From: Priapulus caudatus
Taxonomy: Eukaryota; Priapulida; Priapulimorpha; Priapulimorphida; Priapulidae
DNA: 64,000 nucleotides
Assembly (NCBI RefSeq): GCF_000485595.1
Contig: NW_014577187.1
Span: 220,256-284,255, forward strand
Direction: 5' to 3'
Position numbers and translations under genes: made by a program. Each line of letters begins with the position of its first letter. Positions within the stretch are counted from its first letter, which is position 1. Under the pieces are notes generated by a model. The model was not told where the DNA came from and searched no databases. It saw nothing but the letters and a program-made list of their open reading frames with translations. Below, one piece after another: positions 14,201 through 60,533 of the stretch.

Positions 14201-17084
14201 CTGGCGCATGTCGGTCGTTGCCGATGACTATGTTGTCACTGAGTGCCATCTGGATGACACACGAGCCGGCAAGAAAGCTCTTCAGCTGGATCTGTCCACT
14301 GACCTCAGATCGCAGCACGTTCCCCTATAACGATGCAATTCGTGAACAACTGAACATCAAGGTTTATCCGGTGTTAACAATTGCAGATTTAAACCAGTAG
14401 TGTGATGATGCAGCACGGGTTTCCCCTGGAATTTCAGGTAGCACGTCGGGCTATTCATCCCTGATTGCTAATTGGAGTCAATTACGCACGTGTGTCATAA
14501 TCAGCCCCACTGTACAGCGGTGAACTTGATCAGTTCACAGACATATACATCGAGCTGTGAACACACAGCATGGGTGGTATTTGGATTCTCAAAGGTAAAC
14601 ACAGCTGAAAATTAGGGCAAGTTATTTTGACAAAAGATCAGGAGATTTATGGCATATAGTATGTTAGATTCAACTTTAAAGCAATGTCAGACCCAACATT
14701 GTGTTGAAGGCCTGGGTAGAACCCTGATGGAGTATAAACAGCTAAACTACACTGATTTACTAATGATCTCAGATGCCATAATTATACAATTTGGCACAAC
14801 AACACAAAATGCTTAGAGTATGTAACAACAAAGATTGTAATTAAATGATTTTGTTGTGATTTTATTGACCTTTTCACTAATTAGGTTAACATTTGGCTTG
14901 ATGTATCCCTTTTCTTGAACAATACTACATTAACTATCATACAATATTTACTTTTCATGTCTGTGTAAGAATGATTTATTGCTGAAAGAAGAGGTCTGTA
15001 AGAAATAAAACTTCCTAAATAGCTAACACATATAGCCTGAGGTACTAAACCTAACATTACCAGTACTCACATCACTCCCAAATAAGGCTGTCATTTTCTC
15101 AACCACATCAATGAACACCTCATTGCGTCTCAGTTCAAGATCAGCTTGAGATGGAATCACAGGCTTGTTGGCTGCACTTCCTGGTGCGATCCTTCTCTCT
15201 ACGCCAAACTACGCGACGAAACAAAAAAGGGAGATGGAAATGTGTATTTCGTACTAGTAGTTACAAAAACAAAAAATCACAAGTAAATAATAGGAAATCA
15301 TAAAAATAGGAAAATATTTTTGCCTTTTCTCACCTTGAAACTTTGACAATCGACGAACTGGTTATTATGTTTAGAACATAATTATATTTACAAAACAACT
15401 GCTGCACAATAGAGTTTGGATGAAAACCCAAACATGTAATATAAAGTTACCAGCCCAGTCTGTGCTACACAATCCTTATAGATTGGTGCTGGCTCGCTGT
15501 AGATAAAAGGACGTATCTTCTCTGTAGCTGTCTGCTGTATGATGCCACCATCTACAACTTCATCCAGCATCTCATGAATAAGAACAAAGTTCTTCAGCAG
15601 TGCTCCTTCGCTGACATCACCACAAAAGTCTTTGCACAGATAGAACAACCTGCACAGGTAAAAGAGTGTCGGTTTGCTAACTGCCGATCATGTTTCAGTA
15701 ATTGACCTGCTTAGTGTGACCTTTGCATAAAATTCACAGCTTTAGAGCAGTTGCTTTCAAAAGGTCTAATTTACCTACAGAAATCTTAATGAGTCTCAAT
15801 GTCAGCCGAATTGATCCTGTTAGTATAAACGCTGTAAACATCAAATTCGTTTTTTAGGGTCGAGGGACTTTGACTGAAGTTGAGTGTACTCTAAATAAGA
15901 CCAAGTGCTTGAGAATATCTCTATATAGCACCATAATCGTATATATATACATTGTACCATGATAATATGTATGCATATGTATATACACTGTATCATGATA
16001 ATATGTATACATATATATATATATATATATACATTGTACCATGATAATATGTATACATAAATACATATACAATGTATCATGATAATATGTATACATATAT
16101 ATATATACATTGTACCATGATAATATCAGGAGTAAGATAATATAGGATATCCTATATTATCTTACTCCTGATAATATGTATACATAAATACATAGGTTCA
16201 TGATAGCTATCGACAAATTTATTGACTTCTGTGGTTACCCTGATGATTGGCCTTCCCGATAAAGACACATGTACATAAACAGGGTTTTAGACAGAAGTTT
16301 ACAAAGGATTTATTTCACCCTCAAATGTAACATTAGGTGTTGAAAATCCCTCATAATTTTACCGATACTCTCAATTAGTGATGTCACGATCATCGATTAT
16401 ACTCGATCATCGGTTGAACAGTGGCTCGAACCAAGCGCTTAGTGATGTCACGATCATCGATTATACTCGATCATCGGTTGAACAGTGGCTCGAACCAAGC
16501 GCTTGGTTATCAAAATCCATAATCAATTTCATTAAAAAAAGTTTAAAGAAAAATTTTCAATTTATTTTTTTAATTAAACTTGAACAAGAAAACTTAGAAA
16601 AGTGATGAGAATCAGAGATATCATCGCTACTATACAAGTTATCCTTTATTAACATACATGTATTATACACACAGTAGTAAACAGTGCAAAACAAACAGTA
16701 AACAGGGCTAAACAAGCACATACATGCACACACGTACATGCACACGACGTTACGCACACGCAGGCATTAAACACCCCGAGCAACCGATTGTAACCGATCA
16801 TCGGTTACTTGGGTCCAACCGATGATCGATTACGAAATTACAACCGATTGACAACACTACTCTCAATGAATCATCATTACGTGTTTTACAGAATCCTCAC
16901 CTTTGTAAAAATTCTGTGATGAGAAAAGGTGAGACATCTTTCTCCACGGAGCAGGCAAAATATAAATCGCCTTTCTTAACATATTGATAAACGTTTCCAT
17001 CTTTCTCAAATCGAGGGGCTCCTGATCCTGTATGCAGATGTTCAAAAAATGTTTCTGTGACTTTCACAGGGACAGCTCCTCTAT
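14201..17084 (-). CDS. AP4M1: AP-4 complex subunit mu, 5' half (four exons)
   Basis: Exons in transcript order are 16901-17084, 15451-15649, 15071-15208 and 14201-14324, with GT/AG borders and matching phases. They encode the N-terminal longin-like domain (KKGDLYFACSVEKDVSPF), the LIHEMLDEVVDGGIIQQT helix typical of adaptor mu subunits, a linker, and the start of the mu-homology domain (RRNEVFIDVVEKMTALFG, then SGQIQLKSFLAGS). The first coding exon, expected to give about 23 residues ending in one base, was not found upstream. With the exons at 2632-4815 the product would be about 440 residues, close to the usual 453. The protein is cytosolic and acts at the trans-Golgi network. Confidence 0.92.
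15940..16126. repeat. TA-rich tandem repeat with ATGATAATATGTATACAT core
   Basis: Four or so units alternate the core with TATACATTGTACC or its near complement and runs of TA. The units supply several unoccupied copies of the ATAATAT site used by the neighbouring hairpin. It lies in an AP4M1 intron. Confidence 0.75.
16127..16170. mobile_element. 44-bp perfect hairpin element, CAGGAGTAAG type
   Basis: The sequence is an exact palindrome beginning CAGGAGTAAGATAATATAGG. It is flanked by direct repeats of ATAATAT at 16120-16126 and 16171-16177. The neighbouring tandem units show the same site without the insert (CATGATAATATGTATAC). Confidence 0.75.
16376..16859. mobile_element. Nonautonomous hAT-like element with 8-bp target duplication
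   Basis: The flanking direct repeat CTCTCAAT occurs at 16368-16375 and 16860-16867. The ends are TAGTGATGTCA and the complement of TAGTGTTGTCA. The first 64 bp are exactly duplicated in tandem (16376-16439 and 16440-16503). CGATCATCGGTT motifs recur near both ends. An 8-bp target site and TAGTG ends are hAT features. No transposase frame is present. Confidence 0.85.
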
Positions 17085-18470
17085 CTGCAATTGGGAGATA
17101 TCAAAAGTCAACATTAATCATTATGATCAGGATGTTCTTAGCACCTGTTCACACACTCCCAACTAACTAGTTGTATTCAGCTCATTCAATTATATATTAG
17201 ACCTTGATCATTAATTATCCTAACTTCCTAAGGTGACAGAGAGTGGTCGCTGCTAGAGTTTTACATCGTCTGTGGTTCATTTCTCACCCATTCCTGGAGA
17301 TGGGCCCCACAATTTACATGGTTATCTGAGCCACGGGGGATTCATAGACCCTAATGTTCAGAGCAGCTTTTTATAGCCCGAGAAGATTACCTACCCTAAC
17401 TGGGATCTTGGAATGTGTGATGAATATATATTGCATATTTAGGAGTCAGCTAAAGGTATGCCATCAAGTGCCAAACATATTTCTTATCACTTGTAAGCAG
17501 TGCTAAAATGCAGGTAACCTCAAGGTAGAAATACTAGCCAACGAAAATTTCAGTTCACTTGTCAAAAACTAAATTAGCTTTTCCAATTTATCCTTGATAG
17601 GGCTATTGACGTTTTCACTGTCCGAAAATGCAGAGGTTCACCGGTTTCACATCATTAGCCTCTTTATGGTTTATGATTAATTAAAAGCTCTCTTCGTTCC
17701 ATGACTCCTGCATTATTCTTGTCTTACTGTGTTCTTCAAACTTATATTGCCTCTCATTCTTTTTCTCTGTTTCTTCCTACTCTCCGCTTGGCAAAGATAT
17801 GTGGAATGAAGCACCATTTGTTATGGAAACAGGTGAGGGATGCTGGAAGTCTTTCTGCGGCAATAAGGGGGTCATACAACATAACAGAGCTCTATGATAA
17901 GGGGATATGGAGAACCCTACATACTAAATAGTCTATTTATTATTTCAATGCTGCCACTGCCATTTGTATAGACATGAATTATTAGCAGTTAGTTTTACTA
18001 TCATTCTCTATTCCAGGCTTATACTAAACAGAGCTGGAATTATAATATTTCAGCTAGAACTATTTAATTTATATATATATCCATTTCATTGTTATATTTT
18101 GTTTTGAGCAAGATATAACATCACTGCACCCATCTATAAATGTTTCTGTTCTGTCACCTCTTGTGACTAGGGGACCAGCTATTTCAAGCACACCTTGTAT
18201 GTTTTACTCAGGGGCGGATATAGGCCGTATTCCTGGTGTTCCGGAATACGGCCGTCATTTTTCAAATGCCCTACCAAAAATTTTATCAACATTTTATTTT
18301 TGAGAAATGTCTCTAAATTGCATCTCCGAGTGGCAAATTTGAAAAAAATTCTCCCCCTCCCCCCGTGCTTCCCCTGCCTCGGTGGCCTGCGGCCAGCTTG
18401 TGGTTGGTAACATGTTGACTTTACATGTAACATGTTAACGTGTAGAGCTCTGTCATTGCCAGTGGTGCTC

Positions 18471-18715
18471 ATAGGGTCTATGTCCCCCAGGGTACACCCG
18501 GAACGTACCCTGGTAACTATCTGATATGGTTAGGGTTAGGGTTAAGGTTAGGGAGTAGGCGTAGGCGACTCCCTAGACTCGTTAGTGGAGTAGGCGAGGT
18601 ACGGTCCGGCATATTAGATAGTACCAGCAGAGCATATAAATCACGTTGATTTATATGCTCTGGTACCAGGGTACGTTCCGGCAGTAACTTGGGGACCCTC
18701 TCAGCGCCAGTGGCA
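18471..18715. mobile_element. Inverted-repeat element carrying TTAGGG repeats, copy 1
   Basis: It shares GGGTCTATGTCCCCC, GGAACGTACCCTGG, GAGTAGGCGAGGTACGGTCC and a short TTAGGG array with 37169-37475 and 55645-55822, in opposite orientation. The TTAGGG array is internal. A 35-bp hairpin has inserted at 18628-18662. Confidence 0.75.
18628..18662. mobile_element. 35-bp hairpin element inserted in the telomere-repeat element
   Basis: The 16-bp arms CAGAGCATATAAATCA form a palindrome around CGT. GTACCAG is duplicated on both sides (18621-18627 and 18663-18669). The related element at 37242-37248 has one uninterrupted copy of the site, and 55720-55726 has it with one change. Confidence 0.85.
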
Positions 18716-19067: not shown

Positions 19068-19305
19068 GGCAGTGGCTACGGGTACGGTAGCCGTATCTTA
19101 ATGTCTCGAGGCTACGGGTACGGGAGTCCATTCGCTTTCATACTTAACGAGACAAAGATGGCGGCGGTGGCGCCAGATTTCGAAATAACGCCTTGGGAAA
19201 TAAATTCACGATTTGAGAGTTTAGATAAGCTAGAACCCTAACCCTAACCCTAACGCCAAAAAGGGGCTTCAACGACCGACGGCTACCGTACCCGTAGCCA
19301 CTGTG
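19068..19305. mobile_element. MITE with 9-bp target duplication and internal CCCTAA repeats
   Basis: GAGATAATA is repeated at 19059-19067 and 19306-19314. The inverted ends match over about 25 bp (CAGTGGCTACGGGTACGGTA). The interior has three CCCTAA units near 19236-19253 and an AAGATGGCGGCGG block near 19155. A 9-bp target duplication is usual for Mutator-like elements; the assignment is tentative. Confidence 0.8.
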
Positions 19306-25725: not shown

Positions 25726-25791
<66 letters not shown>

Positions 25792-28700
25792 CTATATATT
25801 ATATTTAATCACATAAAATGTTGGGTTGCATTAGGTAGGGGTAATGATAAAATTAATAGTGTAATTGACGAGAGAAAAGACGAGAAAAAAAGCCAAGTGG
25901 TGATCACATTATATCAGAATTCACATTATTGCAGGGCAGATTCTTATATAACGTAATCACCACTTGGTATACAGTAGAACCCCGCTATAATGTGCCTTGC
26001 AATAATGTGAATCAGGAAATATTTAATCACAAACAGATCAAGTAGAAGTAAAATATATGAACATACATACAAGATAGATAGTAACTATACAAAACTAGTC
26101 TACTAATCTACTAAACCATTTCACTCACATCTTGGAAAATAATTATCTTCTACATTCCATAACGTGTTCTTATCTTTGATCACAGGGTTGCAGGTCACTT
26201 CCAACTGTTCGAACCCCCTTCAAGGATGAGATTTGTCAATTTTATTAAAGATCACATAGAATTAAACATACTCAGCAGAAGCATATTGCATATGTGGTGC
26301 ATAAGACAACCATGTAATTTTGTGCACAAAAATCAGCAGTGTTTCCCCTGGCCAAAATAGTCTGTGAGGTGGTAAATTTTGTGTGTGTGTGTTTGCACAT
26401 TTCGAGGGCCTAGCAAAGCGAGCACCGCAGGTGCCTGCCCAGCTATGGGGTCCGGGGTTTCAAAATTTTTGAAAAAAAGGTGCAATTAGGACTATTATAA
26501 GCACTGTTCTACGGAAGAGCAGTGATTTTCGTCAGCGAGGTGGTGTTTTAGACAGATTTCTGTGTGGCGGCTGAGAATTTGAGCGAGGCAGCCCGCCTCG
26601 CTCGTGTCAATGCAGGGGAAACACTGATCAGCATAGGCAATATTATATGGCAAAATAAATTAATATAGTTAGACTACATACGACAAACATACCATTTAGG
26701 GTACTGCTTGCTGTGTGAGTGTAAGGCACACTTGGAGTTAACGTGTATGAATCTCAGGTTGCTAACAACCGTTCTGACAGGCACTCCATGTTTCTGTCCA
26801 TCCACTTCCACCCGCCAGATGTCGTTAGCGTCGCCGGTACCATTCTGAACACACATAAAGCAGACGTGCCAAAACCATGTCAAATTTAATTTAGTTGCTA
26901 TTTCACTACACATATTAGCTATATTTAAGGATCTACTCTTTTTCCCATTTGCATGCATGCACTCATCGCAGGGCACATAGCAAGGTGCACTGGCAAATGG
27001 CATCTATAATCACACCGATACAGCACTGTCCAGCCTGCCTTATGTACACTACTGAACTTTACAGACGTCATGCGATTTCAACCCACCATAAAGCAAGAGC
27101 GTGGACAAAATTAACAGATAATTCACTGTTTAGCAAGATTACGATGGAGAGTAACTCATTACTATGATGCTAACAAAATGCTAAAAGCTACAGAAAATTG
27201 CAGATCAAGAAAAAAGACAAAACAATACAGAACTTCATAGCCTGTTAGACATCATCCTTGTTTGGATATCAACCTGTCAACCCAAAGGATGATGGATTGT
27301 ATCCAATCCAATACAGAACTTCATAGCCTGTTAGACATCATCCTTGTTTGGATATCAACCCAAAGGATGATGGATTGGATCCAATTGGATTTCATCTCAC
27401 AGACTGATTAGGTACGTGCCTTCAATTTGCTTATGTAAATATAGAACAGAAACAAAGCAAAATTCTCTTCCAGATGCTTACAAAGATAGTAGAGAAATAA
27501 TAACTTTCTGTCTAGACAGTATAGTGTTTCAAGCCTGTGACCTGACTCATGAAGCAGGATTTTAATTAATACATGTAATAGCAGTGCAATGAGAAGTCAG
27601 TACAATGTGTAATGTGAAACCATAATAAGTTGTCAGCTGAGCGATAGGCAAAAGATGCTATACTCTGCTAACTGATAACTAACTTACCACTCCATAGCCA
27701 GTGACCTGAAAATGCCTCATTGTGATCGGGGCTGGCACACTGTGACTGTGCAGATTTCTTCGTGTGCTTAAGAATTTCGTGGAGAGAAAGGTGGCAAAGC
27801 ATTAAATTAAGTCTGTTGGCTGAATTCCTGTATATTTGACATAAATTATTTATTCAGCATGTAATTACTATGATACGACATCTTCACATAATAACACTAC
27901 CTACTACTAAGACTACTTTGCAAAATGTAACTGCCTAATGCTGCGTTTACACAATCGATTTTTGTCAGCAAATCGTACCGATTTCAAGTGCATTCCAACA
28001 CAATCGGCTGAAATTCGATTGTGTTGGAGTCGGAGTCGAAGTCAAGTCGCCGAGTTGGAGAAATAGAACGTGCTCCAACTCGACCCGATTTGCTGACAAA
28101 AATCGATAGTGTAAACGCAGCATAACAGTAACAAAACAGCATATATATAGAGAATTTGGCCACTCACACGTAATGCTCCAGACGTACAAGGTCTCCACTT
28201 CTCACAAGTTTTATGGGTGTTGAAACATTATGCACTTCTGAAATGACAGATGGACATGATGTACAATTCGACCTGGAGGCCTACAGGATCAGTCATCGAG
28301 CTTTCTGCACATCATCGACCGCTCGAGCACGTAATACTGTATACGCCATATTTTTCGCGTACAGATATATCTTTGCGAATTCAGACTTGACGGACAATTT
28401 CGCGAGTGGGTAATTTCGCGGTCGGTGAATTATGCATTATTCGGTATGATTTATTCGCGTGTTGTTATTTTTGTGGTCGAGGACGCGTTTGCGAAATTCG
28501 CGAAAATTAAACCACTGCGAAATATACAGCGTATACAGTAAGCGGTAACCAATAGTAGGCGATAACTTTCATCAGCAGCTTACAGAAATTTTGTTTGATA
28601 AAACAGTGTGGTGTTAACGATTCAAGAGGGTGTAACCTCGCAATTATGACCGAACAACTGACCAGGAGTTTCGCCTTCTACCTCCTTGATCACCCATTTG

Positions 28701-34524: not shown

Positions 34525-34600
34525 CACAGGCCCTTGGAGCCGCTTCGCTCTTTTACTCTTCTTGAAACTTGAAACTTAATTGAGCCTCCAAGGGCCTGTG
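34525..34600. mobile_element. 76-bp miniature element with 15-bp inverted ends
   Basis: CACAGGCCCTTGGAG and its complement form the ends, and GACTAAG is duplicated at 34518-34524 and 34601-34607. The size and target length are hAT-like. Confidence 0.75.
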
Positions 34601-35815: not shown

Positions 35816-38800
35816 ATGTCAAAAACATTGTCGATAATTTGGTTTTGCGCGGCAGTGCTTGGCTTTAAGTTCTTGCGGGCTCAGATCCTGCCACCGCCTG
35901 TGTTCGAGGACCCAGTTGCTGAGACATTGAAAGGACACGTTCGTGGGAAAGTAGTGACATTCTGGGAGATTGATCCGAAGGATCCCTATCAAAATAAGAG
36001 GATATACTACAACATCAGTACCTTTTTGGGAATTCCGTATGCTCAGCCACCAGTCGTCAGTACCACGGGCACTTTACGATTTAAGGTAATAATTAATTAA
36101 TTATACATATGATCAGATCTATCCTCGATCACTAATTACTATTTTGTAAGGGTTTGATCCTTACGTCGGTCGGTGTCCTGGCCGTCTGGTAGAATGGAGC
36201 ACACTCAGTTGCTCCCAGGCGGTCCTTATATATGGTGGCAGCCGTGGCCTTGCCTGGCTTGCCGTGGATTCTGGGTCGAAGCCTGTAGGTGAGTCCAGTA
36301 GAATGGCTTCGACTCGTAGTTGCCGGTAGACACCTTACATTTTTATGTTGTTGTTGTTGTTGTTGTTGTTACTATTTTAATTTTTATTCTAGGTCGAAAT
36401 TGTCATTCTATTGAGTTGATTGTCATCGGAATCACGGCGGTGGGATGATTAAATACATAATATCAGGAGTGAATAATAATAGATAATCATAATATATAGA
36501 TAATAATATCTATTATTATTCACTCCTGATAATATATACAATGTAATTGGTCGTTCGTAAGTCATCTAAATTATGCGATTGTTTTTGCGCATTATTTGTG
36601 AACAAAAAGTCTTGTTGATACCCTGTGTTTTCCAATACTATAATTCATAAGAATTTCAGCCCGCGCTTAATTGTCTATTGTTACTATTGTATTATATAAT
36701 ACTTTCATGTCCACGCCAATGTTAGCGACATAAATGGTATATAATTATTCCCATGTGATTTTTTCGCCACATGTGATTTTTCGCCATGACTTCTTTGCTA
36801 ATTACAGTTTTTAACTAATTAATATTATTAGAAATCGCAATACAGCTAGTCTTTATAGTTGCGGCTATATATGTTGTTCTGAGAAAAACTCGAAGTATAT
36901 GTATACTTATCATTTTTGCTGTCTACAAAGTCTGCATTGTCTTCATTCAAAAGCTGTACCATACATTAATTATTCTTTACGATATTAGCTTTTGCTGTTT
37001 CACCGTTTGACCTCTAATGTTTAATAATTTGTTACCTAACACCGTGTTTGTTAGTATTTTTAAGTTTGCAATAAAAAGACCGTGATGGCAATCAAACATC
37101 TTTTATTAGGTGTTGGCTGTTACCAGCACATCCTCGTGCAAAACTAAACACTGGTAGCCCTAGTTGCGCTGAGAGGGTCTATGTCCCCCGGGGTACTGCC
37201 GGAACGTACCCTGGGTACGGTCCGGTATACCGGAACGTACCCTGGTACTATCTAATATGCCGGACCGTACCTCGCCTACTCCACTAACGAGTCTAGGAAG
37301 TCGCCTACGCCTATACTCCCTAACCCTAACCCTAACCTTAACCCTAACCCTAACCCTAACCCTAATCCTAACCCTAACCATATCAAATAGTGACCAGGGT
37401 ACGTTCAGGTATACCGGACCGTACCCAGGGTACGTTCTGGCAGTACCCTGGGGGACATAGACCATATGAGCCCTATAGTTGCTTATCGTATTCCTACCGT
37501 TATAATAAAAACGGCCTCGTGTTCAAACGCAATGTAATCATTGGCTGCGTAGTATAGTGGTTTAGGGCGCATATCGTAAATTATCGACAGCTGCACATAA
37601 GAAACATTTGAACACACGTTGTGCTTCTTCAGAAGTCAATGAGACACAGTAAGCTTAGCTATATATGTGCGCTAATCGGAAATAATTTTAAGTAACTGCA
37701 TGTATTGGCCCATCAAAAACAAACAAACAAACAAAAGCAGAACGTTACGATGAGTACTAGTCGTTTGTTTTTGTAATTTCATCTTGAAATATTCTTCCTT
37801 TCTCTCCATACCTAAGTGTAGAATAGTTATATATTATATTGCAAATATTGCATATAGTGCGTTTATATTGCAAACCGCAGTATATTTTAAAAACTGCTCT
37901 GACAATTTGATCAACATCAAACTCTATTTTTTCGTATAATGTTAAAAGGTTGTTGGAATGTCTTCGACTAGTGTCGTAACCATAAGCATAATTAAGCGAC
38001 GGGCACCATTGGTCGCCAGCGCGAATACAAAGATATTACATGTGCGTCGGATCCGGTTTGGCGTCCACGTCCCAGGTTAGCTGCTGCATGTGCAATATGA
38101 ACACATCATCTCACAAATTACAGTTCGTTGGTATGGTAACATTCGCCTAACCATCGTCGGACACTAGGCTGGTTCACTGTCGTGAGCGAATACATAGTGT
38201 TCGGATGGCCTGACCATGAAAATGTGTTTGTACGTGGACCAGTAAATGACTAGCTGTATACTCATTAATTATTATTCCCCTTAGGGAACTCGATTCCGAG
38301 TGAACGATAGCTAGGGTCTCTGTGACTGGAATAAATCCAACACTGTGGTTTAGCCAGCACTGCCATAGTCACGACAGTGCAACCAGGAACAGGGCCGGCG
38401 GAAGCAAATAAACATTGGTCAGCCCATTTAGCATCAATGTAACAGATGTCGACAGATGTCGATCAGTATAACAGATGTCGACGAACAGCTGGCCGAAGGT
38501 CAGGTGCCCACGGCGCAGCCGTGGCGGGGGAGCTCTAGGGGGGGGGGTTCCCCCTTGTCAAAGGGGGGTTTGGGGGTTCTCCCCCCAAGCAATTTAAAAA
38601 ATTTAAGACACCAAGATGCCTTTTAGAGCTTGAAAATACTTTTCAAAACTCTAACAAATATATATTTATACCTAATTATAGGCCTAATTATACCTAAGTA
38701 TAGGCCTAATTATTTCGGCATCTGCCAATTTACATGTCAAATTTAATGCGTGTGCACGTACACGTGCGGGCATGCGTGCATGCGTGTGCAGGTACACGTG

Positions 38801-41800
38801 CGGGCATGCGTGCATGCGTGTGCAGGTACACGTGTGTGCATGAGTGCGTTGGTGCGTACGTGCGTGTGTGTACAGGTACACGTGCATGCGTGCATGTGTG
38901 CATGCATGCGTGCGTGTGTGCATGCATGCGTGCGTGCGTGTGTATGTAAACGTGCGTGCATGCGTGCGTGTGTGCGTGTGCACGTATACGTGCGTGCGTG
39001 CGTGCGTGCGTGCCTACACGTGCGTGCATGTGTGCGTGTGCACGTACACGTGCGCGCGTGCGCGCATGTGCAAGTACACGTGCGTGCGTGTGTACGTACA
39101 CGTGCGTTCGTGCGTGCGTGCGTGCGTGTGCACTTACACGTGCGTACATGCGTGCGTGCGTGCGTGCGTGCGTGTGAACGTACACGTGCGTGCCTGCGTG
39201 CGTGTGTGCGTGCGTGCGTGTTCACGTACACGTGCGTGCGTGCGTGCGTGCGTGTTCACGTACACGTGCGTGCGTGCGTGTGAGCGTGTTCACGTACACG
39301 TGCGTGCGTGTTCACGTACACGTGCGTGCGTGTGTGTGCAGGTACACGTGTGTGCGTGCGTGTGCACGTACACGTGCGTGCGTGCGAGCGTGCGTATGCA
39401 CATATACGTGCGTGCGTGCATGCGTGCGTACGTGCCTGCGTGCGTGTGCAGGCACACGTGTGTGCATGGCGCGTGCGTGCGTCTGCGTGGTTTTGGGACT
39501 GTACACGTGCGGCACCGTGCATACCTGATATGCACGTTTACACATGCGTTTTCATGCGTGCGGTGCGTGGTGTGCACCGGTAAGACGTGGTGCGTGCGTG
39601 GCGGGTGAAACGTACAGTGCGTGCCGCTGTCGTGTGAACGTACAGTGCGTGCCTGCGTGCGTGTGTGAATGCGTGGTGTGTTCGCGTACCACGTGGTGAA
39701 TCTGTGTGTGTGCAGGTACACGTGCGGTGCTGGTGCATGCATGTGCACGTAGACGTGGCGCAGTGCCGTGCATGGCTGGTGCACGTACACGTGGCGTGCG
39801 TGCGTTGCGCACGTACACGTGCGTCATGAGTGTGTGGCGTGCGTGTGCAGATACACGTGCGTGCGTGCCGTGGCGTGTGTACGTAATAGCGTTGGCGTGC
39901 GTGTGTGATTGAATGGAAATATATCACCGTCATCTGCTTGCTGAACGGTTAACGTGTGCGCATTATGGGACGTCAATGTTATACAACATTAAAAACACGT
40001 CATGTAGTAGTATAGCTATGCGTGTATACTAAACTATATGTTGATTTCAGATCATTATATGTTTCCGGATTGCAAAATATTGTAGATCCGACCTGTGATG
40101 ACGAAAATGTGTTGCGCTTGAAAAAAATAATGATCGAGAAAAAATTATTAGTCGGCCATGGCCGTCATCTTGCGGCACCGGCTCCGCCGGCCTAAGGAAG
40201 ATGGATGGATGCGAAGGGCAAGTGAGTGGTTGCGGTGGATTGAATAGAGAGATATGTGGGTGGGCGGAGTCGATGGACTATGGAGGAGATGTGTATGGCT
40301 GCTAGGTGGTGGCTGAACGGAAGATATAGTGTGGTCGGAGAAAAATTGACTAAACGAAGGATGTGCAGGTAGGTCGATAGCTAGATGAAAGGTTGTGTGG
40401 AATGGGCCGGAAGGAATAGTGGGAAGGATGTGTGGTTGAGAGGTGGGTAAATGAATAGGAGGATTGTCGTGAGTAGAAGTAGGTTGATGAATATGTGCGA
40501 TATGTGCGTGGCGTGCGGTCGGTGAGTGCATATGGGTGCAATGATCATTACGGGGGATGTGGTGACGTTGGTAGGTGGATGAATAGAGTGAAATGAATGT
40601 ATGGGTGGTTTAAAATTGATGGGATAAGCGTGCGTGTGTGATGATTGGTGCGAACAAATGAGTGAATGGAGGATGTGTGGATCCGATGGGAAGAACGTAT
40701 ATTGTGGGTGGGGGTGTAAAAGGATGATGGCATTGATTTGGATACATGGCATGGATGGGACGAACGCGACGTGTGGATGAAACGGATGTGATAGTTGGTA
40801 AAGGATGGAATGGAGATGGGATGGACTGACGGTATGAGGATGCGGAGAGATGGAGCTGAAGATGGTGGAGATGCGGGTGGATGGATGGGCTGATAAATGG
40901 ATGAGTGGATTGGATCGTTGGGAAGGCGGGATTGTGCGAGGGGGGTCGATAAATGGAAGGACGTGTGAATGGTGACGTGTGTAGAAGACTCGTGTGTGTG
41001 GTGGATGAGCGGGAGGATGGTGTGTTAGCGTTAACTAGTACCAATAGCCTAGCCAAAAAATGATTTCGTAAACTGACATAATTATGAAATATTGGCGGCT
41101 GCTTGCGTATCGGGTTGGTCATGTTGATTTGCGTGCGCGCTGTCGGTCAGGCTTCGTTGGAAAGAGCACTATAGGTCGACAGTTGAGGGCTTATAAAATA
41201 AAGCATATAAAGCAAGCTTCGTTATATGCTCTTGTAAAATTCAGGAGTGTAATAATAGCATGTAATAGTGTATTATCACTCTGATAATCATTTCCTGTGT
41301 GCCAGTTGTCGCAAAATATGTCAGGCAACTATGATAATAATCATGAATATGTACGCAAATAATTTGTTTTGCTTAGAGCAACCGTATCGACTTGCAATAG
41401 GCCAGAACTAGCTGTTTTTTTAGTGAATTTATGAGGATTTGCTCAGTGAAGTTCGCTTGCTAAGGGAACGATTGGTAGAGCATAGTGATGTATACTCAGT
41501 ACGAGATGATTTCTTGTTGGCCGGAGTACACGACGAGCGACCCATTGTCCTATCATAATGCTGGCTATACTGTTCGCGGCTATTGATGAGAAACGTTTAT
41601 GATTAAACGACAGCAGTTAGAACATAAAAATCACGTTTTTCTACGAAGTGTTTGTGTTTGAATGAACCAAAAAAACGCCATATATATTGAACTTTACAGC
41701 AGTTAAATATATGCACAGAAAATATCAAATTAACGTTGTTTCATGGTTGACATGTGTAATATTACACGGCGTTGCATTGTACGCGTAGCAGGGCTACTCA

Positions 41801-42148
41801 CGCTCGCAATCCGCACCTGCTTTCACACGCTCTTACGCATGAGATCCCATCACACTTACACACTGTCATACGCATTTATTTCAATTATAATGTATTCTGT
41901 TCTTTCTGTGCATTTTTTAGATATTTGTTCTACGATTTCTTATCTGTTATTTCATTCGCTTGTATTTTAGATAATAAGCCTTTTCGTAACGACAAAACGA
42001 TGTTCCAGAGTCCATTTACCCTGTTGGTTTTACATAGTACGTATCTTATTTGCGCAGTCAAACAACCGTACAGTAATTTACACACGTGTCACTATCACTC
42101 ACGCACAGACAGCGCGATGCACGCACGACTGCCACCACACACATCACA

Positions 42149-42179
<31 letters not shown>

Positions 42180-43445: not shown

Positions 43446-43476
<31 letters not shown>

Positions 43477-44410: not shown

Positions 44411-44467
<57 letters not shown>

Positions 44468-45811: not shown

Positions 45812-45860
<49 letters not shown>

Positions 45861-48800
45861 CACAACACTACACACACATCACACACTTACACACAAAATC
45901 GATGGTGATCAAAATCGGGGGGGGACATTTGAGTATCGATTCCCCCATCTGAAATATCGTGGCACGCGTGAGACATGTTCCTTCCTGTCCCCCCCCCTGA
46001 TTGGGGGTGGGTGCGGGGGCCCCTGAATGTAAGGGTTTACGTGTCTTAAGTTGCGCGATAGATGCGCTGACGAAGAGGTTACAGAGAATACAAGTAAAAG
46101 TAGCGTCAGCATGATTTAACTTAGTTTTATGACCTGCAATTGATTTTTACTGTTGGCATCGGTTTTCCGTTGCAACACTCTATAATATCTATCACTCTTG
46201 GTCATATTATTGCTCTGTAGCTTCATGTGTTGCCTGTTAATGGTGAAACTGTTATGCAGAACCATGTATTTATCATACGACACGGATTCCTTACGGCAAC
46301 AACGAGTCCACGACCAGGCCAATTACGGTATGTATGGATCAAGTGTATGGCCATGAAATGGGTTCGTGAGAACATACGGCCTTCACGGGCAATCCGGACT
46401 CGTGACCATCCATGGGGGAGAGTGCTGGTGCCGTAGTGTCGGTCTGCCACCTTCTATCAGAATGCAGTCTCAGGGTAGGTTTAGTATCAGCTCTGTGTAT
46501 CATCCTTGCTTCCCTTCGTGGTGGGATCAAGAAAAGTCAATAGTTGTAGTGTATCAAAGACATGGCACCTAAAGCANNNNNNNNNNNNNNNCGTGCGTGC
46601 ATGAGTGTGTGCGTGCGTGTGCACGTACACGTGCGTGCGTGCGCATGTCCACGTATACGTGCGTGCGTGCGTGCGTGTGCACGTACACGTGCGTGCATGA
46701 GTGTGTGCGTGCGTGTGCACGTACACGTGCGTGCGTGCGTGCGTGTGTACGTATACGTGCGTGCGTGCGTGTGATTGAATGGAACAATATCACGCATCTG
46801 CTTGCTGCCAACCGTTAACCTGCGCATATGACGTCAATGTTTATAAACATTAAAACAACGTCATGTAGTAGTATATATGCGTGTATACATAAACTATATA
46901 TGTGATTTCAGATCATTATATGCTCGGGATTGCAATAATTGTAGATCCGACCTGTGCATAACGAAAATGTGTGCTTGAAAAAAATAATGATCGGAAAAAT
47001 TATTGGTCCGGCCATGGCCGGACTTGCCGGACCGGCTCCGCCGGCCCTAAGGAAGATGGATGGATGGAAGGGCAAGTGAGTGGTTGGGTGGATGAATAGA
47101 AGGATATGTGGGTGGGCGAGTCGATGGACATATGGAGAGATGTGTATGGGTAGGTGGGTGAACGGAAATATATGTGGGTCGGAGAACAAATTGCTAAACG
47201 AAAGGATGTGCAGGTAGGTCGATAGCTAGATGAAAAGGTGTGTGGATGGGCCGGTAGGAATAGTGGAAGGATGTGTGGATGAGAAGGTGGGTAAATGAAT
47301 AGGAGGATGTGTGGATGAGTAAGTAGGTGGATGAATAGGAGGATATGTGTGGGTGGGTGGGTCGGTGAGTGTATGGGTGAATGAATGAACGGGAGGATGT
47401 GTGAGTTGGTAGGTGGATGAATAGGTGAAATGATGTATGGGTGGTTAAATTGATGGATAGGTGCGTGTGTGATGATCGGTGACGAACAAATGAGTGAATG
47501 GGAGGATGTGTGGATCGATGGAAGAACGTATATGTGGGTGGGCGGGTAAAAGGATGGATGGATTGATGGATACATGGCATGGATGGACGAGCGGACGGGT
47601 GGATGAAACGATGTGAAGGTTGGTAAATGGATGGATGGATGGATGGATGGATGGACTGACGGACGGAGATGGATGGCTGGATAGATGGATGGATGGGTGG
47701 GTGGATGGATGGCTGGATAAATGGATGAGTGGATGGATGGTTGGAAGGCGGGATGTGTGCGAGGGCGGGTCGATAAATGGAAGGACGTGTGAATGGGTAG
47801 ACGGGTGAGAAGACGTGTGTGTGGTGGTCCTGGTGGATGAGCGGAAGGATGTGTGTTAGCGTTAACTAGTACCACATCAGCCTAGCCAAAAAATGAATTT
47901 CGTAAAACTGACATAATTATGAAAATATTGCGGCTGCTGCGTATCGGGTTGGTCATGTTGATTTGCGTGCGACGCTGTCGGTCAGAGCTTCGTTGAAAGA
48001 GCACTATAGTCGACAGCATGAGGGCTATAAAATCAAGAGCATATAAAGAAGCTTCTTTATATGCTCTTGATAAAATCAGGAGTGTATAATAGTGTAATAG
48101 TGTATTATACACTCCTGATAAAATCCATTCTCCTGTGTGCCAGTGTCGCAAATATGTCAGGCAAATATGATAAATAATAATGAATATGATACGCAAAATA
48201 ATTTGTTTTTGCTAGAGCAACCGTATTGACTTGCAATAGCGCCAGCAACTATGTTTTTTTAGGAATTTATGGATTTTGCTCAGTGAAGTTCGTTGCAAGG
48301 GAACGATTGGTATGAAGCATAGTGATGTATACCAGTATACGAGATGATTTTCTTGTGCCAGAGTACACGACGAGCGACCCCATTGCTCCTATCATAATGC
48401 TGCTATACTTTCGCGGCTATTGAATGAGACGTTTATGATTAAACGACACAAGTAGAAACCATAAAAATACGTTTTTCTAACAGAAGTGTTTTGTGTTGAA
48501 TGAAAACAAAAAACGCCATATTAATTGAACTTACACAGTTTAAATATATGCACAGAAAAATATCAAATTAACGTGTTTCATGGTTGACATTGTAATATTA
48601 TACACGTGCGTGCATTTACGTACAGGGCTACTCACGCTCGCATCCGCACCTGCTTTCACACGCTTACGCATGGATCCCCCCCCATTCACACTTACACACT
48701 GTCATACGCATTTATTCAATTATTGTATTCTGTTCTCTTGTGATTTTTAGATATCTTGTTCTCGATTTCTTATCTTGTTATTCATTCGCTTGTATTATTA

Positions 48801-50325
48801 AGATAAATATAGCCTTTTCGTAACGACAACAACGATGTTCCAGAGTCCATATTACCATGTGGCTTTACATAGTACGTATCTTATTTGCACAGTCAACAAC
48901 CGTACAGTAATTTACACACGCACGTATTCACTCACGCACGCACACACGCATGCACGCACGCACGCACGCACGCAGCACACTACACACACCACCATCACAC
49001 GACCACACACACACACACACGCGCGGCGGCGCGCCGCGCTGGGTATGTAGTGCAGATACCTATAAACTATTATTGTTTTATATTAAATGTAAACCTGTCC
49101 GACAGTACGCGATTTTAAATGATAGGCTGACAAATCCGTTTATTTGCAATATCTATTTATGACTATTAGTAACTAAAATAAATTTCGTATGGATAAAAGT
49201 TCAGAAATTGCAACTAGTTAGTAATGCCCTAGGCTCGGCGCCTGGTTGATGAAATGTAATGTCAAAGTAAGGTCGACAAAGGCTATGATGGGCTCGAGTG
49301 GAGGCCTAGTATAGGGCTCAATAGAAGCGTAACCACTCCATAATTTTAGTAGATAGTATTACAATGCGACGCATGTCTAACGGAAAGTAGTTAGATGAAG
49401 TTTCGTACAATCTATTAAGTAAGATGATATGGAAGTCTATTATAGAATGAAGGTAAGCCCTTACTATAGCAATTAGCATCCTAATGTAAACTGCGCGGCA
49501 TCGTTACTAGGTGCACTTTTGCCCATACGTGTATGTGAGGCAAACTGCCACTATAAGCGCAGACGTTCATTTGCGTGGACGTTTCAGTGCTTTTGCTGTA
49601 ATGAGTTGGGGACCGAACATTTTGACTTCTTTTCGTGTGGTTAGGATTCTGACAATACATCAAAAATCTCGTGGTAGGTTTGGTTTTGCTCTCGAGTATT
49701 GTAAACGTGCCTTACTTGAATATCGGGGCTGAATAATAGCTTGAAATTCGCAATATAGTAGGCCTACTCGTTATTTTAGGCGATGTTGTAATATGTCTAA
49801 CTGCCTGTATGTGGGAACTAAATTGTGGCTGTCCTGGGTTATAATTAGTTGCTGTCGCCAGGCCTGGCAACGCCTGAGCAGTACGTTATGAGTATAATGG
49901 AATATGGACATCTCTCAGTGGAAGCATGTAGCAACTTACTGCTAATTGTTTCTTCGTTAATACAACATTGGCTTCGGTAAGAACCACGTTACCAGGAAAA
50001 TATTAGAATCGAACTATCTAGCTATCCACTAGGAGTAATGTTATATCACAACCCTCTGTATATTGTAATATGATTGAATTCAAAATAGGAAATCTGAAAA
50101 AAAATATGAAAATGTTGTTTGATGTTGCCTGGCCTCAGTGCATAAATGTATTTTTAGTAAGCGATATATATATATATATTATATTATTAGATAGATATAC
50201 TATGTGTGTGTGGTGTGTGTGTGCGTGCGTGCATGCGTGCATGCGTGCGTGCGTGCGCGCGTGTGTGTGCGGATTAATGTAACGCCTTTCTTCACAGCTC
50301 ACGGGAGCATCATTTTTTTTTTTTT

Positions 50326-50356
<31 letters not shown>

Positions 50357-52729
50357 GTTTGTTTTTTTTTTTTTTTTTTTGTTTTTTTTTTTTTTTTTTT
50401 TGATGCTGGCAAGTATTTTAACATTTCACTCAATAAACGTTATTAGAGACGAGCGTCGTGCCTGGGAGTTGTTATTGTGTAATGAACACAAGTCATTCAT
50501 TACTCATACGAATTCAGATATCTTCATTGTAGCATATATGCTGTACTAACTCGGTGGTTTACACTAGGGAACGATCAGACGGTGGTTCGTAGGGTAACGA
50601 TCGGCGGCTGAGATTGACAAATTTCCATATGCATTTTTAGTATCAGAGGCTGCAGTGCCTTGGCAGGGTACACTAGAAACGAAAGTGTACGGAGCAGCAT
50701 GCCCGCAGATTCCCCAGGGAAAACTTGGACAGCTAATCAAGAAAGTTCATGAGGACTGCCTTTATCTAAACGTATTTTCGCCAAACGTAAGTATAACTGC
50801 ATAGAGCAAATTTGGTCTCCTCTGCTTTGAGCTGTTTTGAAAGTATTTCGTTAATTCATAAGAGCACGCGTTTTTTTTAATTAATGAAAAAGTAAACGTA
50901 CGCGAAATATGCATTAACATATAAATAAATGGCCATATCACAAACACTGACCTGGAATATATCTGCCGCTTCTTCAGTTCGAGGATACGCGCGAGTTTCA
51001 ACCCTGCATGCGCTTAAAAAAACACAAAGTTTACCACCGCCTTACTTTACCTTTAGTTTTGCAAAAAGGTCGATGACCTCAGAAAGTCACTGGTGTTATG
51101 ATTATACAAACTCATTATTGAGTACTGTAGGCCCTATGTATAGTATCTCACCGTTCATACGCCGAAGTTGCTCAGGGACTGGAAGCATACCCGGGGTTAC
51201 ATTTCCTCGTAGAATAGCGCGGCTATAAATATATATGTATGTTGTATGGTATTAATATATATATATATAATTATATAGTATATTATTATATAGAAGGAGA
51301 GAGAGAGACGTAGAGAGAGAGAGAGAGACGAGAGAGAGAGAAGAGAAGACGAGAGAGACTGAGCTGAGAGAGAGCGAGAGAGGATGGTGGGCTGTATGTG
51401 TATGTAAACTGCAATATATAGTGCTTAGTGGGAACAAATAAAAAAGTATTCACATTGCTTGCTTTGTCTGAGAGTAGACGTCGCAGACAATGACCAGAAG
51501 TACCCGCGTCATCAGCCAATCCATGTGCCGGATCGTTTCACACGCGTTCGCGGAGAGATATATCCCGGTTTACAAAGCTCGCCACACTGGGAGTCGAGTG
51601 ATCGTCAGCGTTTACTACCGACATCGGAGCGCTCCGGTAAGACAATTTGTGCGTTGTGTGTGTGCTGTTGTGTGCTGTTGTGTGGTGTTGTGCGTTTGTT
51701 GTGTGCTGTTGTGTGTGTTGTTGTGTGTGCGTGTGTTGTTGGTTGCTGCTGTTGTGCTGTTGTGTGTTGCTGTGTGTTGTGTGGTTTCTGTGTAATGTTG
51801 TGTGTTGCTATTGTTGTTGTTGTGTTCTTAGTTTTGTTGTGCTGGTACTGAGACAATGTAATCGAGCGCGCAAATCCATTTTGAAATGTTTGGTTGGGCA
51901 CGTCCAGTAGCTGAGACACGCGAAGGGGGGGGGGGCGGTCGGGGGTCAGAATGTTTTTGAAATTAGACCCCTCAGATAGCCGTTTTCTGCGCGAGCAGAG
52001 GGGTCCGCGACCCCCCTGCGACCTCCCCCCCACCTGACACGCCCCTAGCACTACACACACACACACACAACACACAACATCACACATGCACACATCACAC
52101 ACACACACATGCATTTGGTTTTGAAGATTAAGATTACGACAAAAGTGGTGTCACTGTCCACGGTATTGCAGTCATAATAATCAAGAAAACAATAAAGCAG
52201 TAAAAACCATATCATTTGGGTGTGAGGCTGATCAGCAAAATAAATTGGCTTGTTGTATTAGTGTTGTCTAGTCATATTCATGATTTATGCCGTGTAATAT
52301 TATTCATAAATTTTGCAACGAGAATTACATTTCATTTAAAACGGATTGCTTCAGTTCACTGCCCAGTGTCCTGCTTTTGCCGTGAATATAGTCGTGTTCC
52401 CAGCTTAATCTTTGTAATCAGTGCCTAATGGGGAGTGATATCTCCTAAACACTTTCATCAAACATTACTTTCTCTTGATGTATGCTGCATAGAATTATGT
52501 TAACTATATAGAAAAAAACTACGTGTAAAATACTAAAACGTGCGTACTAAATTGATCAAGACACGATTTTCCTTAAGTTTGTGGCATGAGTCTATTATGC
52601 TTTACTCAAGCCACTTGAATGAAATGAAGCTGCGAAAGAGATATCTAGAGATAGATGATAGAACAAGAGGGAAGTAAGCCTAGCCTTTGACGACACTAAT
52701 CACACACAATAAAAAGATCTCACTTTCAC

Positions 52730-52786
<57 letters not shown>

Positions 52787-55700
52787 ACACACAAAATCAT
52801 GGTGATCCAAAATCGTGGGGGGACATTTGATATGATGTCCCCCCTCTGAAAATTCGTGGGGGGACATGTCCTCCTGTCCCCCCCCCTGGATTTGCGCCCC
52901 TGAATGTAATGTGTTTACGGTGTCTTAAGTTGCGGCGATAGAGGTGACGAAGGTTACAAGACAATATCAAGTAAAAGTAGCTGTCACGCATTATATTTCA
53001 ACTTAGTTTGTTATGACCTGATTATTTTTACTTTGCGCATGGTTTTCCCGTTGCAACACTCTATATATCTATCACTCTTGGTCATATATTGCTCGTAGCT
53101 TCATGTGTTGCCTGTAATGGTGAACTTGTATGCAGAACATTTTTAACATACGACAGGATTCCTTACGACCAACAACGAGTACGCACCAGGCAATTACGGT
53201 ATGATGGATCAAGTGATGGCCATGAAATGGGTTCGTGAGAACATACGAGGCTTCAACGGCGATCCCGGACTCGTGACCATCATGGGGGAGAGTGCTGGTG
53301 CCGCTAGTGTCGGTCTGCACCTTCTATCAGAGCAGTCTCAGGGTAGGTTATATATCAGCTCGTGTATCATCTTTCTTCCCTCGTGGGGAGATCAGAAAAG
53401 TGTCAATAGTTGTAGTGTATCAAAGACATGCACCTAAATGCATCTCTCGGGCATATTGTAATATGAACATGAAATTACATATATTTATATATATTTACTT
53501 ACGGATAATTACGACGTATCTAGATGCCCTGCGTAAAATTAGCTGGATTTAAGAAACTTTTCATTGATATTCTATAATCATGCCATAGATGATACCATCA
53601 TTCTAATAAACAATTTGAGCTTGGCATATATCCATACAAATATTAATTATGAATAGATATTGTTCCCTGTCATTGGTCATGTTTAAACGATCGCATCTCA
53701 GTCAAAACTCGCGTACGTGTTTAATTAGACTCACGTAATCGGATTAGATTATGAACGGCATGCGTCTTTCCGAAAATTACGAATTTTTCAATACTGAAAC
53801 GGAATTGACATTGTTCAACGCCATAAGCACGCACGCAGCAAACGGTTATGAGGGCCATAACCACGAAAGCGAATTTCGCGCTCCTTGCGATCTGCTTGTG
53901 ATTGCATCTGCGTTTATTATAGATCTATTTCACCGAGCGATATGTATGAGCGGATCTGGGCTAGCGCCGTGGGCGGTGTACACCAACAGAGACCAGGCCT
54001 ATAACCATACCAAAGAGCTCGGCCGCAAGACGGGCTGCTACACAGACGAGAAGAACCAGAAGCCGCAGGAGATTATCGACTGCCTAAACATCAGAACGTC
54101 GATCGATATATCGGAAGCGGTCGTCGTGGTAAGGCACACGTTTGTGCTATCGTGAAGGGGGAATCAGTTCCGCGATTTCTCATCGCATATATCGTATAAA
54201 TATATTTCCATATCAATCGATTTGGTTAATTTGGTCGTCGTGGAAAAGCACACGCTTGTGCTAAAATCATGGAGAAATATGGATTTCCCCCACTCTCTGC
54301 AATGTGCACCATGTCACATTTCCTGGTTCAGTCATGTCTATGATTTTGCCTCCCGTCTCGAATGTTTAAGCAACCAATATTAAAAGGTACTTTATTGAGT
54401 TCTGATCATACCTTACGTTGCAATCCACCACTGTCAAGCATGTATCTAAATAGCGCATGTGTCTTACTACTTCATACAGCCGGATTATGGGATGCGCCCT
54501 CCTTGGGCCCCGGTCGTGCAGGGCTACTACCCTTACGTGTTCTTGCAAGACGACCCAAGAAAGCTTCTGCAACACGGCGCCCTAGTGACCAAGGTTCCAG
54601 TGATGCAGGGAGTGGTGAAGGACGAAGCTGGCGCATTTCTCTGTATGTACAATAATTTATAGCGTTGCCAACGATATCTATGGCAATTAATGGGCTACTT
54701 GTGTATGGTATAGCATTAATGTCATACCGGAATAGTCATGTTATTTATATAACATAGACATTGTAACTAAACTTGCTATTTAATCAACGCAATTGACGAA
54801 TTTAGCAGAATTTTTGCCATTCCTCAACAAGAGTCTATCTTACCAGCTGCTCCGTGCATGCCTGTTTCTGCAGATGATTCGGACCCGGATTATTCGCTGA
54901 CCTTGCCAGAATTTTACTCCACGATTCGTGAGTTTGTGAAGAAGGAGAATTACTCACTAGAGGAAAGTGTAGTCACTGCTATTGGTGACTCAATGATATT
55001 CGAGTACACGTTTCACCCGGACGCGGAGAACCTGACCGTCGTGCGACAGGAGATGATAAACGTACGATATGTTTAACGTTGGGGGACATTCACGTGTGGG
55101 GAGATTTTGACATTTTACTATTTTTTACGTCGTTTATAACATGATCGGTCAACAAAAAAAGTTTATGTTATTGTGGGTCGTACTAAAATAAAATCTCCAT
55201 AAGGTCTATAAAATTGAATCTAGACGCGTGCTTCAGCGCGATGTTTCGTTAGTGCCTAGTCTAGTTACATTTACTGTGTGCGCATTGCGCGGTGCATTAT
55301 TTAAGATTCTAAACTTTAGTAATATTCGGTTCCCATTTTATAGTTGCTGTCAGATCACCAGTTTAATGCTCCCAACGAGCTATCTGCCAAATACCACGCC
55401 CAGCACGGATTGGATGTGTTCGAATACACATTCGATTACAGAGCCGACTTTAGTAGATACCCAAACTGGACGGGTATGTATAACAAGAAATACACTGTAT
55501 AGCGTGGAAATGCATTCGCGCAATATTTATCACGTTCATACCTTTAGTACTATTCGGTCTGGTGACTCTGGTCTACTAGTTATTAGTCTGCTAGTGTAGT
55601 CTATTAGTTCAGTTTCGACTAGCAGGATACCGCGCACATACAGGTGCTGAGAGGGTCTATGTCTCCCTGGGTACTGCCAGAACGTACCCTGGGTACGGTC

Positions 55701-56577: not shown

Positions 56578-56642
<65 letters not shown>

Positions 56643-58489: not shown

Positions 58490-58532
<43 letters not shown>

Positions 58533-60366
58533 GGTTTTAAATAGAAAGGGTACACCACGGATGTGGTTTAGAATAATTTTAAAACTGTTTGCTGCCCAAA
58601 CTGTATACACATTTCGGCAGCTCATTGTAAATATACACACTTGTAGTTTTTTATGACCAGATATTTTTAGACTTCATCGTATGCATTATTCAACAGGCCA
58701 ACCTGTTAACGTTGATGATTTGATTGGATAATGTAATCAAGAAATCGTTTGATTTACGTAAACGCGTTTGCTGAATCTTTATAATTGATGTTCTTTATGA
58801 AGACAGTAGAACTATTGTGGTTACCTTTAGAACTATATTGATATTGTGATTTTTAAACATATTAATCAATTATCTAAATTGCGTCATCCACGACATGTAA
58901 AGAATTGGATGTAACGTGCGGAATTGATTTGTTACTCAATTAATTGTTATTCACAACAATCACTGTAATCTTCATTAATGTGTTAAGTGCGGCAGCACAA
59001 ATCGAACATTATGTGTGTTACAAATGAAGATGTTTATGACTTTCAATCGTACAGAATTTAAAAAAGGTCATATTCACATTTAATCGCGTTTGTGACGCAA
59101 ACAAGGTTTGCCACGGTCTGTATTGATTTGTGTGTAAATGGATTTATCAGGAGATTATGGTTACAGATCAGCGATTGTGCGATCCTACATACTAGTAATT
59201 AGATGGTTTTACACAAGTGATTTATAATTTCATAAAAAAAATGCGGAAATCAACTAGCAATGCCACCAGTAACATGAAATGTTGTAACTTGTTGATATGC
59301 GGACGACTAGTTGAAACGTCGTGACGTACCATATGTAAATTATCGTTAACGAATAAATGCTGATTTTATATATAATTACTGATCAATTTCTAAATCGGTT
59401 TTTATTGCCTAAATAAATAGGTATAAGGTTTTTTTTATAATTAGAAAATGACCTTATGAAAGAAAAACATATCGCGGACCTATATTTGCATTACGAGAGA
59501 AATTAAGGAAATCGTCGAGCAGAATTTAACAATTGGAATGATGATGCACGCAGTAGTTAGTTAGTACAAGGGCGCATCCCGTATTTGAAGAAATGGGCGC
59601 CCTGCGAACAACGAGGTTGTGAAGTCCATGGCGGGGGCCCGGGAGGGGGCCCTCCCCGCAATTGTTTTAATGAACCTTCTTAGATCAAATTTCTTAGGTA
59701 TCTGACACCAATTGTTTTAATAATCACGCCTATTTTTGAAGGCAAACACGAAAATCATATCCCATATGCACACGCGCAAACGCACACGCACGTGCATGCC
59801 CCCTGCACATACACACACATGCAAATTACATATTAATATATACATTAATAAAGTTTATTAATTCAGTAAAATAGAATGCCTGAAATTGGCCATGCCTGAT
59901 TTTAGAGTCTGTTTTACCAGTCAGCTAGTACCAGAACACGCAATCTCCTACATTATTCCGAAAATGAGTTCTGTACTAACATTCGTCTCGGATATCTGCG
60001 AGCATATAAATATACATCGATGATCTTGTCGTACTGCAGTGGAATGGAAGTCGAGCGTACAAACATTTGACTGCAAAACTGTGTAGAAATATAAGTGGCG
60101 CCGGATTTAATTTTATTTATTTTGTTTTATTATTTCTTTTCCCTGTGCTTTATATTTTGTTTAAAAAACCTACAGATTGCGAAGTGATCGGCTTTGACTT
60201 GGACGAGCCATCCGACAATATTAGACCGCAACAAATTTTGCTTGGCAGAAATTATAGGGGTGGGGGCGCTCCGGCTGCACCCTCTTTGAATCTGCGCATG
60301 TTAGTAATTAATAAATTGATCCTACCCGGAGTCAATTATTATTATTATTATTATCATTAAATCGTT
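57968..60366. other. 3' flank of the esterase, no recognised gene
   Basis: It probably begins with the esterase 3' untranslated region; AATAAA-like signals are present but none is decisive. A (TA)n tract lies at 58494-58531 and a G/C-homopolymer repeat tail near 59620-59665. The open frame at 60067-60360 is low in family features and I do not call it. Confidence 0.5.
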
Positions 60367-60533
60367 ATTGCATGTAATTCAAATACAAATACATGTACTG
60401 AAGACAGTCTTTTTCATATAATCAAGAGCGTATAAAGAAGGCTTTATACGCTCTTGATATATATATATATATATAATATATGAAAAAGACTGTCTTCAGT
60501 ACATGTATTTGTATTTGAATTACATGCAATAAA
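60367..60533. repeat. Nested inverted repeat around a CAAGAGCGTATAAAG hairpin
   Basis: The outer arms of about 53 bp (TGCATGTAATTCAAATACAA onward to 60420, and the complement at about 60478-60533) are nearly identical. The inner hairpin is 60423-60456 (CAAGAGCGTATAAAGAAG and complement). A short TA run lies between the inner and right outer arm. Confidence 0.85.

Follow-up and report, generated by a model that had tools for sequence, protein, structure and literature searches.

The question raised by this stretch of Priapulus caudatus DNA (contig NW_014577187.1, positions 220,256 to 284,255; 64,000 nucleotides, hereafter the window) is what kind of sequence its six tiny hairpins represent. 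The six had been located in a preliminary description, and all of them were confirmed (Table 1, E1 to E6). From the comparisons set out below, we conclude that they are very probably excision footprints of larger DNA transposons resembling those of the P superfamily, and not mobile elements themselves.

Insertion can be read in the window itself. The flanks of each hairpin were joined at one copy of the duplication, and an exact match was sought within the window. The joined flanks of E1 and E2 matched intact sites exactly, and DNA was therefore inserted at both places with a 7-bp duplication; for E3 to E6, no exact empty site was found within the window. The exact 7-bp repeats that the preliminary description had noted at four hairpins are present, and their count is now five (E1 to E5); E6 has no exact 7-bp duplication, its flanks being ATATAAT and ATATATA with an AT repeat adjoining. 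Around the tandem pair formed by E4 and E5, ATAAAAT occurs three times. Stems of at least 14 with an exact 7-bp flanking repeat numbered six in the window (E1 to E5 and one at 34525-34600), compared with none in 40 Markov shuffles.

The 385-Mb assembly (2952 contigs) was then searched for inverted pairs and the flanks were inspected for repeats of 7-8 bp, the two checks proposed in the preliminary description, and both gave counts far above their controls. CAGGAGT followed by ACTCCTG at a distance of 20-50 (hairpins of 34-64 bp) was found at 2036 places against 5 for the reversed pattern, and the same pair 0-20 apart (hairpins of 14-34 bp) at 517 places against 5, length 34 being counted in both searches and both describing one end class. 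Sixty copies were read, comprising 40 long ones drawn from the first 43 of the 2036 places and 20 short ones chosen by hand from 50 listed places of the 14-34 bp search. An exact 7-bp duplication was present in 36, two of which (L103 and L104) cannot be counted as independent, their flanks being almost identical; an exact 8-bp duplication was present in 7 more, three of them (L042, L050 and L055) ambiguous because they sit in AT repeats; and 17 had neither. Re-pairing the flanks among the same copies gave a mean of 2.4 duplications and a maximum of 7, compared with the 43 of 60 observed. The remaining three of the first 43 places had an exact 7-bp duplication in two cases and none in one. The short scars measure 16-32 bp and have shortened ends or centres; 13 of the 20 carried exact 7-bp duplications, the smallest such scar being 21 bp (L113), and the 16-bp scar had none. 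The target motif approximates ATANTAT: in the 23 exact-7-bp copies among the first 40, T stood at position 2 in 23/23, A at position 6 in 21/23, T at position 7 in 21/23 and A at position 1 in 19/23.

How much of an element's end is kept in a hairpin was counted for two end types with a known donor continuation, in hairpins where each side retained 16 nt or more of the end and the two sides were separated by at most 30 nt; this pattern could reveal stubs of up to 31 nt, stubs below 16 nt lying outside its view. It yielded 47 hairpins for one type and 43 for the other (control 0 in both cases). Exactly 19 nt of the donor end was kept in 62 of 94 and 63 of 86 arms (125/180) and 20 nt in 3 and 3 arms (6/180), and no arm kept more, though the donor ends continue. 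The commonest sequence was the direct 19+19 join, found in 11 of the 43 hairpins and, as two third-base variants, in 10 plus 5 of the 47; in the window, E6 retains 19+15 nt and E4 18+18 nt of the donor end. A fixed stop point has no reason in free-standing mini-elements, but is expected if a transposase cuts 19 nt inside the ends. An alternative cut at 22 nt, suggested by shared arm prefixes, was abandoned, since a palindromic centre makes such prefixes look longer than they are; the donor-based counts give 19.

The interiors of the hairpins point in the same direction. By reading, at least 12 arm end types were distinguished among 61 hairpins compared, nearly all beginning with CARGAG; arms of the same type match across loci and then diverge, and the centres vary in length and sequence. 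There were 31 distinct sequences among 47 hairpins of one end type and 30 among 43 of another, and the differences were central. Filler was analysed in the 19 of 52 hairpins with at least 8 filler bases, where 289 of 391 filler bases lay within 6-mers repeated elsewhere in their own hairpin, compared with 114 after filler shuffling. A single 170-bp hairpin (L016) accounts for 114 of these 289 bases and for 79 of the 114 obtained by shuffling; its removal leaves 175 of 257 against 35. For E3, the values are 27 of 29 bases and 8.9. The L016 hairpin was considered as a miniature inverted-repeat transposable element (MITE), a view that was dropped, its interior being mostly repeated arm pieces, as in a scar with long filler. 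The 19-nt edge, the variable centres and the arm-like filler together mark the hairpins as the joined remnants of larger elements that were excised, and speak against the preliminary view of them as small elements in their own right.

Larger elements with hairpin-type ends exist for three end types, which upholds the earlier proposal of a derivation from a DNA transposon with target duplications. A foldback element of ~700 bp, with ends beginning CAAGAGTGGATAATAGAGAAGAGTATGAC, was met near a P-like exon in two loci (L073 and L077), and half of it matches at least 77 places, most of which, among the 40 scored of 320 candidates, are inverted pairs ~700 bp apart. Ten foldback donors were chosen by hand from these pairs and read at both ends; their inverted repeats were closely alike (GC, GG, AC or AA at positions 8-9), and six of them showed exact 7-bp duplications; in a seventh, with a mutated end, the duplication was recognized by eye, two had 8 bp within AT repeats, and one had none. 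The end type to which E4 and E6 belong has 491 forward and 447 reverse ends; the 100 of these that were listed included 23 facing pairs, of which 16 were spaced 37-70 bp, one 289 bp and six 654-729 bp. Three long donors picked from the seven wider pairs carried CAAGAGCRTATAAAGAAGGAGAGCGTACAA in five of six ends, the sixth having two changes, and exact 7-bp duplications in two, the third having none (6/7 bases agree). Over all 13 donors, with CA..TG ends, the duplications were exact 7 bp in eight, one by eye and 8 bp in AT repeats in two, with two donors lacking them (one agreeing at 6/7); the duplicated targets likewise resemble ATANTAT. The split in length between scars and whole elements matches what excision predicts. 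The hairpins of the commonest, CAGGAGT end types probably arose in the same way. Separately, foldback-family ends face each other 9.1 kb apart at G000:C467:170831-179947, a candidate larger or coding copy.

Considering these results, we propose the following as the most probable course of events. A larger DNA transposon would insert at an ATANTAT-like site, making a duplication of 7 bp (sometimes 8 bp); on excision, the transposase would cut one strand ~19 nt into each terminal inverted repeat, leaving a stub of ~19 nt on each broken end; and the stubs would be end-joined, either directly or after synthesis of filler copied from the stubs. Identical stubs joined head to head would give a near-perfect palindrome of ~38 bp with a variable centre. 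Judged from the joined products, the edge would be the cut of a P-type transposase, and the joining may have followed a polymerase-theta-like pathway.

Assignment to the P superfamily, in the 7-bp branch with Galileo and 1360, is the most likely. P-type transposases are present in the genome, as shown by 14 matches to PF12017, by one locus (L069) with four P-specific Pfam domains in one open frame and by a match to the solved P transposase 6p5a at 2.2e-23. Within another P-type transposase locus (L066, ~2547-3009), a segment of ~460-480 bp runs in the opposite orientation to its counterpart in L065 and L071. The preliminary description had suggested a hAT-like origin as one of two possibilities. 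Duplications of the hAT superfamily are 8 bp long, and here 36 of 43 were 7 bp; the target motif, foldback donors and retention edge also fit the P superfamily better, and a hAT deletion derivative was rejected on duplication length and the 19-nt edge. The hairpin-based insertion mechanism offered as its alternative is unsupported, and is unneeded because larger elements explain both the ends and the duplications.

Several observations weigh against excision by a P-type system. An exact 7- or 8-bp duplication is lacking in the 17 of 60 hairpins mentioned above, no repeated 6-mer was present in 5 of the 19 fillers, and 54 of the 100 listed ends of the E4/E6 type faced no second end that was intact over 18 nt. 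A single sequence is seen again and again at separate loci (11 of 43; 10 and 5 of 47), as would also be expected of a mobile hairpin. Between CARGAG ends, no P-type transposase was found in 14 loci, each only ~3.1-3.3 kb. Furthermore, the foldback element of L073 and L077 is absent from their paralogue L074, and its place beside the P-like exon therefore represents a separate insertion.

Other explanations were weighed on the same evidence. The hairpins might be tiny MITEs that are mobile as such, with a P-like or hAT transposase acting in trans; this would account for inverted ends with target duplications and for the identical sequences at several loci, but the recurrent sequence is nothing other than two 19-nt stubs joined directly. 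MITE copies share one interior, whereas these copies have variable centres, arm-like filler and no common interior; their sharp 19-nt edge lies in ends that continue in larger elements, and scars with truncated ends, down to the 21 bp of L113, are still duplicated. Mobility of a 38-bp hairpin is also not expected, because P mobility in D. melanogaster requires at least 138 and 216 bp of the ends, although Anopheles P-MITEs keep less than 100 bp at each end (PMC1562414). We regard the MITE explanation as very unlikely. Scars of some non-P superfamily whose transposase likewise cuts far within the ends would be in keeping with the lack of a transposase gene between the ends in those 14 loci; against this, the 7- or 8-bp duplications, the GTANTAC-like palindromic target, the foldback donors and the long stubs jointly fit, to our knowledge, the P superfamily only, and such an origin seems very unlikely.

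Many P deletion derivatives arise by interrupted gap repair, which would also leave two ends with filler, and the hairpins could on that ground be internal deletion derivatives instead of joined cut ends. The break points of gap repair should scatter, yet 0 of 180 arms keep more than 20 nt, and apart from a single pair at 289 bp none of the 23 listed pairs of the E4/E6 type falls in the range from 70 to 654 bp, which leaves this explanation highly improbable. Chance palindromes in AT-rich DNA, or errors of assembly, come to mind for E4 and E5, which lie in an indel-rich repeated stretch around a 15-N gap. The remaining four hairpins of the window are located elsewhere, contrary to the possibility, considered in the preliminary description, that hairpins are restricted to assembly-error sites. 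Duplications far exceed those of re-paired flanks, and the counts of pattern against control (2036 vs 5, 517 vs 5, 47 vs 0 and 43 vs 0) refute chance or misassembly, to which we give a negligible probability.

Table 1. Hairpins, flanking duplications, empty sites and related features of the window (positions are those of the window; E1 to E6 are read as scars).
Feature	Position	Strand	Description
E1	16127..16170	.	Scar, end type CAGGAGTAAGATAATATAGG; palindrome 22+22 bp
E1 duplication	16120-16126 and 16171-16177		ATAATAT (7 bp), exact flanking repeat
E1 empty-site counterpart	16019..16067	+	49 nt exact to joined flanks; neighbouring tandem-repeat unit
E2	18628..18662	.	Scar, end type CAGAGCATATAAATCA
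E2 duplication	18621-18627 and 18663-18669		GTACCAG (7 bp), exact flanking repeat
E2 empty-site counterpart	37230..37297	-	68 nt exact to joined flanks; dispersed repeat
E3	36464..36528	.	Scar, end type CAGGAGTGAATAATAATAG; pieces of the arms recur in its long filler; 7-bp duplication ATAATAT
E4 altered copy	41200..41234	.	In repeated stretch 39733-46573; coordinates by eye
E5 altered copy	41242..41283	.	In repeated stretch 39733-46573; coordinates by eye
E4	48034..48069	.	Scar, end type CAAGAGCATATAAAGAAG; 7-bp duplication ATAAAAT
E5	48077..48117	.	Scar, end type CAGGAGTGTATAATAGTG; adjoins E4; 7-bp duplication ATAAAAT common to both
Larger palindrome	60365..60532	.	56-bp arms; AT-rich loop contains E6 and AT repeat
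E6	60423..60456	.	Scar, end type CAAGAGCGTATAAAGAAG; beside AT repeat

Scars also occur in clusters. Besides E4 and E5, a second side-by-side pair was found at L056, a scar nested in a scar, each with its own duplication, at L028, and a CARGAG sequence directly adjoining the donor in two of the ten foldback donors read (L089 and L093). Scars keep two target copies, and repeated landing is therefore plausible. It is possible, and we offer it tentatively as something that may well prove wrong, that one end class alone records ~2500 or more inherited P-type excisions, with a cut at 19 rather than 17 nt and with scars, through their two target copies and a centre that is often AT-rich, serving as new landing sites that seed clusters. 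If this were true, excision repaired by end joining would both remove elements and build insertion hot spots.

Further features of the window were observed. A 76-bp hairpin at 34525-34600 differs from the rest in its ends (CACAGGCCCTTGGAG), is flanked by the exact 7-bp duplication GACTAAG and is possibly a scar or MITE of another family; at 25-50 on the minus strand, CAGGAGTAGATAATAGGGAGGAGTG resembles a scar with one shortened arm; and the larger palindrome around E6 may be an older foldback-like insertion. A 7-kb stretch is present twice, at 39733-46573 and 46609-53438, its copies 85% alike with 489 gap openings and flanking the 15-N gap, and is perhaps a false assembly duplication. A direct repeat of ~5 kb (53-4948 and 8353-13231) is 81% alike with many gaps. 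Inverted ends were noted at 19070-19303 (CAGTGGCTACGGG, 25-bp arms) and at 26337-26626 (CAGTGTTTCCCCTG, 14-bp arms), both of which we take to be perhaps hAT-like elements. By reading only, open frames at 35804-57967 resemble exons of a carboxylesterase or cholinesterase-like gene.

That excision can leave footprints is already known; as far as we searched, what is new is a natural high-copy archive of them, the variant with 7-bp duplications and a 19-nt edge, and the number of end types. In the full-text literature searched, most subscription papers being outside it, no account of P-type scars occurring naturally across a genome was found. Such an archive would make it possible to measure from sequence alone where a P-type transposase cuts, how often excision leaves a scar and in what manner the joining of germline breaks that carry long non-complementary tails has proceeded in the course of evolution. 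A caution also follows: short palindromes with target duplications should not be called MITEs before their centres and donors have been checked.

Among known systems, Galileo, of the P superfamily, makes duplications of 7, rarely 8 bp, at GTANTAC targets and has very long inverted repeats (PMC4168063). It shares with the elements described here the duplication length, a palindromic target whose second base is T and whose sixth is A, and very long inverted repeats; it is unlike them in having other ends, tiny hairpin scars are unmentioned in the available part of that paper, and the donors here are ~700 bp (PMC4168063). The modal duplication is 7 bp for 1360 (Hoppel) and 8 bp for P, that of hobo being 8 bp as well (PMC3276498); 1360, also of the P superfamily, shares the length of 7 bp with the elements described here. 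Anopheles P-MITEs are likewise short and non-coding with P ends, but they are larger, with 8-bp duplications and a defined interior, and are not scars (PMC1562414). Surveys in rice also read natural excisions and their repair from genomes, although in plants and with excisions found by comparison of species (PMC4423477, PMC5023962).

The closest parallel is provided by Drosophila P, the transposase of which cuts 17 nt inside 31-bp inverted repeats (PMC7776569), and excision of P{wa} leaves ends with 17-nt non-complementary 3' tails (PMC2895639). End-joining products of P{wa} obtained in mutant flies consist of an 8-bp duplication, a stub of at most 17 nt, microhomology or an insertion, a second stub and the duplication again, and the insertion in one product is ~50 nt of TTATTATT-like repeats (PMC2895639). 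The hairpins described here have the same order of duplication, stub, microhomology or templated filler, stub and duplication, with 7 bp and, as we infer, 19 nt in place of the 8 bp and 17-nt stubs of the laboratory assay (PMC2895639); unlike the fly products, they occur naturally, are fixed in the genome in great number and represent many end types.

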